From the NCBI RefSeq assembly GCF_000220395.1, contig NW_004087677.1, forward strand, positions 1 to 39,188: a DNA stretch of 39,188 nucleotides. The letters are read 5' to 3'. Made by a program: the position numbers and the translations under genes. The notes under the pieces were generated by a model that was not told the origin of the DNA, made no database searches, and was given only the letters and a program-made list of their open reading frames with translations. Shown here in pieces: positions 8,843-9,583 of the stretch; position 1 is the first letter of the stretch, and every line of letters starts with the position of its first letter. This stretch comes from Ichthyophthirius multifiliis (lineage: Eukaryota; Ciliophora; Oligohymenophorea; Hymenostomatida).

Positions 8843-9583
8843 TCATTTTTTTTAATTTCTTCTTGTTTTTTCTTTTTGTAATAAGTCTTCAGTTTCAGCA
8901 TTAATATTAATGTAATCAGCTCCATAAGTTTTAACAGCTTTAATTCTTAAATTTTCGCTAAATTCCTTAGTAAATATTTTTAAAAAAGCTACTAAATCTG
9001 ATCTTTCTTCTTCACTCTAAATACCTCCATTTTTTATTTCACATTTGCATCCTTTTATGAAATTTTTAGGATTTTATAAAAAATAAAAAAGATTTCTTGT
9101 ATTCCAAATATGAGAAGAATAAGTTAATGCCGGGGTATAATTATAATAATAATCAGCTCCTGCCCTTCTACCATAAATAAGTCCTAATCCAGGTCCACTA
9201 GTCTTTCTTCCAGCATTATCTTTTTCTAAAGAATGACATGATTAACATTAAGTTGTAAAAATTTATGATCCTGCAACAAAATCGCCATCTATTGGTATTT
9301 TTTAATCTTCAATTTCATATTTATATCTATGTTCTTTCGATTTTGCGGATTATATTTTTTTTAAATTTTCATGATCTAAGAATTTTTGTTCTCCTTCTTT
9401 ATTTTTTGTGTCGACTTCTGATTATAATTTTGTTATGTTTTCGTAAAATTATTCCTTTGTTAAACCAGATTCGGTAAGTATTCTTTAATTCCATTTTTTC
9501 TCGAGCTCTTCTTAGGTGAGCTTTTATTTATTTTCGTTATTTTACTATGATTTTTCTATATTTTATTGTTGTGGTTTAGACAT
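8843..9583 (-). CDS. Long cytochrome c-domain protein with CxxCH but Cys at the Met80 position
   Basis: Single exon of 246 residues from ATG (complement of 9581-9583) to TGA (complement of 8843-8845). Residues about 100-205 follow class I cytochrome c order: haem site CQSCH at 113-117 with His117 as proximal ligand, SGPGLGLIYGRRAG at 129-142, the Tyr/Trp region ending HIW at 160, LFYFLQNPKNF at 165-175, and the C-terminal helix ERSDLVAFLK at 193-202. Where ordinary cytochromes c have PGTKM with the axial Met80, this protein has KGCKC (177-181), so Cys181 replaces the ligand. The ~100-residue charged N-terminal extension and ~40-residue C-terminal tail are also unusual, since typical cytochrome c is 105-115 residues. 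It could be a divergent electron carrier or a haem-bearing subunit of a mitochondrial complex. The haem-c fold is clear; redox function is not. Confidence 0.9.

Follow-up and report, generated by a model that had tools for sequence, protein, structure and literature searches.

A ciliate family of cytochromes c with an invariant cysteine at the position of the axial methionine

The 39,188-nucleotide stretch of Ichthyophthirius multifiliis DNA analysed here (contig NW_004087677.1, positions 1 to 39,188; hereafter the window) encodes a cytochrome c-domain protein in which the position of the axial haem ligand Met80 is occupied by a cysteine, and the same cysteine recurs in every relative that reaches this position. 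Few residues of mitochondrial cytochrome c are as fixed as Met80. On balance we favour the view, taken together with all steps of the mechanism proposed below, that the gene is nuclear and encodes an old ciliate paralogue of the mitochondrial protein, in which an invariant cysteine has taken the place of the methionine ligand.

The gene is a single open frame on the reverse strand under NCBI table 6, the code by which its 16 in-frame TAA and TAG codons are decoded as glutamine (Table 1). PF00034 matches the product at 29.2 bits (curated cut-off 21.3), as it does all 22 members of the family described below (E up to 0.1), and the domain has the cytochrome c fold; Foldseek and VIA-align effectively covered this domain (residues 94-207). 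A preliminary description of the locus, made from the letters alone, had reported an intact haem site, CQSCH, and an N-terminal extension of about 100 residues. Both hold: the window protein has one CXXCH, the family has a CXXCH in all 22 members with C113, C116 and H117 present in each, and the extension measures 98 residues.

Alignment by phmmer to chains of the Protein Data Bank (PDB) set the window segment fikgckce against yipgtkm of cytochrome c, placing Cys181 at Met80 and Cys179 at Thr78, and MAFFT alignments placed both cysteines identically. The central claim of the preliminary description, a cysteine at the Met80 position within 9020-9060 where GCKC stands for GTKM, is thereby borne out. 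Two of its details are true of the window protein but not of the family. The second cysteine, at 179, is found in only one of 21 members, and we rejected it as part of the site; the preceding proline, Pro76 of cytochrome c, is Lys177 here but is retained in 10 of 21 members, and it is likewise missing, with Ser in its place, from the genome's canonical paralogue. As judged from the alignments, the replacement at 181 is shared and retained in the family and Cys179 is a local peculiarity. We also looked for a methionine that might serve as ligand instead. Such a ligand is impossible in the window protein, because its only methionine is residue 1; column 175 holds a phenylalanine, and the candidate was rejected.

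An artefact, whether sequencing error, missed intron or decaying copy, would be the most trivial explanation. The gene is known from a single assembly (45 Mb, 937 contigs) and lies in a very A+T-rich stretch (G+C 11-20% across seven 5-kb steps of the window). Against this, the frame remains open through 246 codons, its G+C of 0.255 is the fourth highest among the listed open reading frames of the window, and relatives of 245 and 240 amino acids align to the protein over its whole length. Relatives keep the cysteine and align straight through the GCKC segment, among them the closest species-assigned one, from Tetrahymena malaccensis (57% identity over 90%), so that neither an intron nor an error is needed there and both were rejected. 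We consider an artefact very improbable; the change looks real and old on the evidence of these sequences.

Three protein searches returned the 22 family members, counting the window protein, and 14 bacterial-type cytochromes; the two groups were separated by E-values and by inspection of the sequences, and the later tree agreed. The list is a lower bound, since one search scored no more than 7997 candidates, those with the most words in common. Besides the window protein, the species-assigned members come from T. malaccensis, Paramecium octaurelia, P. bursaria and Pseudocohnilembus persalinus, and there are 17 further proteins. Cysteine stands at the Met80 column (column 181) in all 21 members with a letter there, P0033 being excluded from this count as it stops before the ligand position. 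Methionine stands there in 14/14 bacterial-type hits and in 6/6 other cytochromes c: four eukaryotic chains from the PDB, a bacterial cytochrome cy domain and the genome's own canonical protein. Of the 215 columns with at least 15 letters, 18 are invariant, column 181 being one of them, and the columns beside it vary (8 residue types at 179, 4 at 180 and 7 at 182). Within the columns filled by the window protein, only 113, 116 and 181 hold more than one cysteine.

This pattern bears on the possibility that the cysteine is not a ligand at all, the haem being five-coordinate or lysine-bound, the protein a peroxidase and the cysteine engaged in other redox chemistry. Loss of Met ligation raises the peroxidase activity of canonical cytochrome c, and a Lys or Arg adjoins the ligand-column cysteine in 19/21 members. 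The cysteine is however invariant exactly at the ligand place while its neighbours vary, and among the columns occupied in the window protein there is no second conserved free cysteine for a disulfide. We regard a peroxidase as doubtful, and ligation of the iron by the cysteine thiolate as likely from the sequences.

We calculated a tree with column 181 removed, using 40 rows, 102 of 119 columns and 20 of the 22 family members (P0032 and P0033, both incomplete, were excluded). The Cys family formed one side of a branch with support 98/97, which fits a single origin of the family among the rows used. Support was much lower for its position: the canonical cytochrome c of the genome grouped beside the Cys family at just 49/57, and the Cys family with all six other cytochromes c at just 57/70. 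Three proteins from short contigs (P0021, P0034 and P0035) form a distant branch of the family without the usual C-terminal helix. They share another tail (NK..., then RRLD), with Arg as the final residue in each; the domain may really be shorter in them, or their frames may end on the 5' side of an intron.

The preliminary description also raised the question of a canonical cytochrome c in the same genome. Whether the genome was searched with the window protein or with the canonical protein P0008, the same two genes came up, that of P0008 being separate and having GTKM (Table 1); a cytochrome c1 gene is present as well. Because of this separate GTKM gene, the window gene encodes an additional protein and not a substitute for the carrier. 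The genome was searched in six frames with introns ignored, so further divergent copies could escape; the PF00034 genome search found the canonical gene only, missing the window gene, and hence gives no full count of divergent cytochromes c. The canonical gene converges on one for an AhpC/TSA peroxiredoxin of 204 amino acids (minus strand of C412, L001:2262-2876, ends approximate; PF00578, E 5e-37).

Table 1. Coordinates of the cysteine-type cytochrome c gene, its predicted parts and the canonical paralogue (window positions unless a contig is given).
Feature	Position	Strand	Remarks
Cys-type cytochrome c gene, ciliate	8843..9583	-	246 aa, ATG to TGA, no intron seen
N-terminal extension, residues 1-98	9290..9583	-	predicted helices 24-34, 43-82; partly conserved in family
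Cytochrome c domain, residues 99-206	8966..9289	-	
Haem c attachment motif CQSCH, residues 113-117	9233..9247	-	His117 is the expected proximal ligand
GCKC in place of GTKM, residues 178-181	9041..9052	-	minus-strand codons GGA TGC AAA TGT
Cys181, predicted distal (sixth) haem ligand replacing Met80	9041..9043	-	family conservation 21/21
C-terminal extension, residues 207-246 (about 40)	8846..8965	-	predicted helices 191-220 (starts inside domain), 222-245
Canonical cytochrome c P0008, 115 aa, GTKM	contig C412, L001:1441-1788	+	

The remainder of the window showed no evident link to the cytochrome gene. Five of the ten window frames scanned match Pfam above cut-offs; matches elsewhere in the window include a protein phosphatase 2C frame (PF00481, 18107-19222, minus strand, E 2.7e-43), an SPT2 chromatin protein frame (PF08243, 12488-13120, plus strand, E 1.5e-17), a DUF4441 frame (PF14536, 1599-2666, plus strand, E 2.8e-16) and two C2 domain frames (PF00168, 28798-29958 and 32577-34565, both plus strand, E 1.2e-9 and 3e-5). 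No tRNA was found in the window under the bacterial setting of the search.

The protein is otherwise recognizably of the mitochondrial class I type. It shares with class I cytochrome c (PF00034) the CXXCH, Gly6, Phe10, Pro30 and Trp59 (in conventional residue numbers; Phe10 is Tyr in 2/22 family members), as well as the C-terminal helix residues and the overall fold. Apart from the cysteine, it differs from the mitochondrial protein in three respects: Phe82 at the haem edge is gone in 20/20 members with a letter there, the window protein has two extra residues after the ligand, and extensions flank the domain on both sides. Ranked by E, the best 60 of 109 matches among PDB chains and the best 60 of 122 in a second search were ordinary cytochromes c, the top E being 4.5e-18 with the window protein in the first and 1.2e-24 in the second. 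Since an orthologue should outrank ordinary cytochromes c, there is no orthologue among the matches listed, and the T. malaccensis protein indeed scores E 3.7e-78 in a database larger than that of the PDB chains. A subunit of a solved ciliate complex was rejected as an identity for the protein, the PDB matches shown being ordinary cytochromes c.

We propose that the System I (Ccm) machinery would attach haem c to CQSCH inside the intermembrane space of the mitochondrion, and that the iron would be six-coordinate and low-spin with His117 and the Cys181 thiolate as axial ligands. System I haem attachment has been reported for Tetrahymena mitochondria (PMC3884852). Ordinary cytochrome c has a potential near +260 mV (+262 mV for the bovine protein; PMC8388095), and His/Met haems range from +200 to +380 mV, against -180 to -470 mV for the His/Cys c-haems of SoxA and TsdA (PMC9562282). 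Given His/Cys-thiolate ligation, the potential would therefore lie far below that of ordinary cytochrome c, by perhaps several hundred mV, and a protein of such low potential would not carry electrons from complex III to complex IV. The loss of Phe82 is in line with the predicted absence of this shuttle role. Conservation of the extensions suggests that the partner is a fixed one; their helices may anchor the cytochrome to such a protein or complex, and of its possible roles there we rank first a low-potential relay or a thiol/sulfur redox site. Potential, lack of a carrier role, anchoring and this last role are the weakest steps of the scheme. That ciliates have in this family another, dedicated cytochrome c of mitochondria with a natural His/Cys-thiolate haem, performing low-potential or sulfur/thiol chemistry on an intermembrane-space partner and most simply fixed before Paramecium, Pseudocohnilembus and Tetrahymena split, we put at slightly short of an even chance.

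Several observations weigh against this proposal. Our searches found no spectrum, structure or potential for any family member. Confidence in the AlphaFold models is intermediate (mean pLDDT 76.5 with 16 sequences and 73.2, slightly poorer, with 22), and they were built without haem. Methionines are not rare in the relatives, whose columns 150-203 hold 0 to 6 of them (none in the window and T. malaccensis proteins), and column 175, equivalent to Tyr74 of cytochrome c, is Met in 11/21 members, the commonest Met of columns 172-200; it sits six residues ahead of the cysteine, and 10/21 members are without Met there. The window protein and the canonical paralogue do not differ in net domain charge (+3 each), and neither has Lys13 or Tyr67. 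We accordingly rejected charge and the loss of Lys13 and Tyr67 as signs of a lost shuttle role, the canonical paralogue being alike in each; the yeast chain used in this comparison (1cri) is presumably a laboratory variant at Tyr67. As to haem attachment, PF01578 (cytochrome c assembly) gave one genome match, below the cut-off, and PF01265 (holocytochrome c synthase) had no match in the genome but none in the control genomes either, and is uninformative. Finally, the four species-assigned ciliates all belong to Oligohymenophorea, and any spread of the family beyond this class would rest on the proteins without species assignment.

The conserved cysteine, together with partly conserved extensions outside the domain, is also what a type-2 haem-thiolate sensor of redox state or gas might show, in which Cys181 binds ferric iron and leaves on reduction or gas binding while the extensions signal to a partner. 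This overlaps with the haem attachment and His/Cys ligation proposed above, and transitory cysteine binding is described for type-2 proteins (PMC9562282). The type-1 and type-2 classes are however described there for b-type haem proteins, the Pfam search revealed no sensor partner domain, and a cysteine in the cytochrome c loop would have to be able to leave. We judge a sensor unlikely, though less so than a peroxidase. Both were among the possible functions put forward in the preliminary description, which named a structural haem as a third. The alternatives are not mutually exclusive, and the probabilities we attach to them overlap.

The closest chemical precedents are bacterial. SoxA and TsdA have c-type haem with His and Cys axial ligands (PMC9562282), a pair that is only predicted here; unlike them, the window protein would hold one haem in a mitochondrial cytochrome c fold. 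A narrower form of our relay or thiol/sulfur step is a site of the TsdA/SoxA kind, at which the cysteine would leave the iron and be modified by a sulfur species while the haem takes the electron. The predicted ligand pair is the same, and the TsdA reaction proceeds via an intermediate on the ligand cysteine (PMC4423706; PMC9562282). TsdA, however, is a di-heme enzyme (PMC6879331) against the one CXXCH here. At E up to 0.1 the family matched 21 NCBIfam models, none of them for SoxA or TsdA. The SoxX model matched 11/22 members (best E 0.0028), scoring 14.1 bits on the window protein, under its cut-off of 61. We hold such a sulfur site to be less probable than either the sensor or the peroxidase. 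NaxLS offers a further likeness, as its proteins are His/Cys-ligated, small cytochromes c with a cysteine at the distal place. They form a complex of two small cytochromes c in anammox bacteria (PMC8388095); the resemblance of this bacterial heterodimer to the window protein is one of description.

Cytochrome c variants engineered from Met80 to Cys carry the same substitution at the same place but are laboratory products and, unlike the present proteins, not a conserved natural family; literature searches for their names found no paper. Nor did we find, among the papers listed, a natural Met80-to-Cys mitochondrial cytochrome c or an account of the Cys family, which is weak evidence as most subscription literature lies outside the papers covered. 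What is new is the predicted combination of a His/Cys-type c-haem with a conserved eukaryotic family, the domain and the bacterial His/Cys c-haems being already known; to our knowledge, a function for a thiolate-ligated c-haem is known in no other eukaryote. A natural family in which Met80 has become an invariant cysteine, existing beside the normal protein, is a ready experiment on how axial ligands set haem function. The family suggests that ciliates have a redox step not described so far and, as T. malaccensis has a member, a laboratory relative is probably open to direct test.
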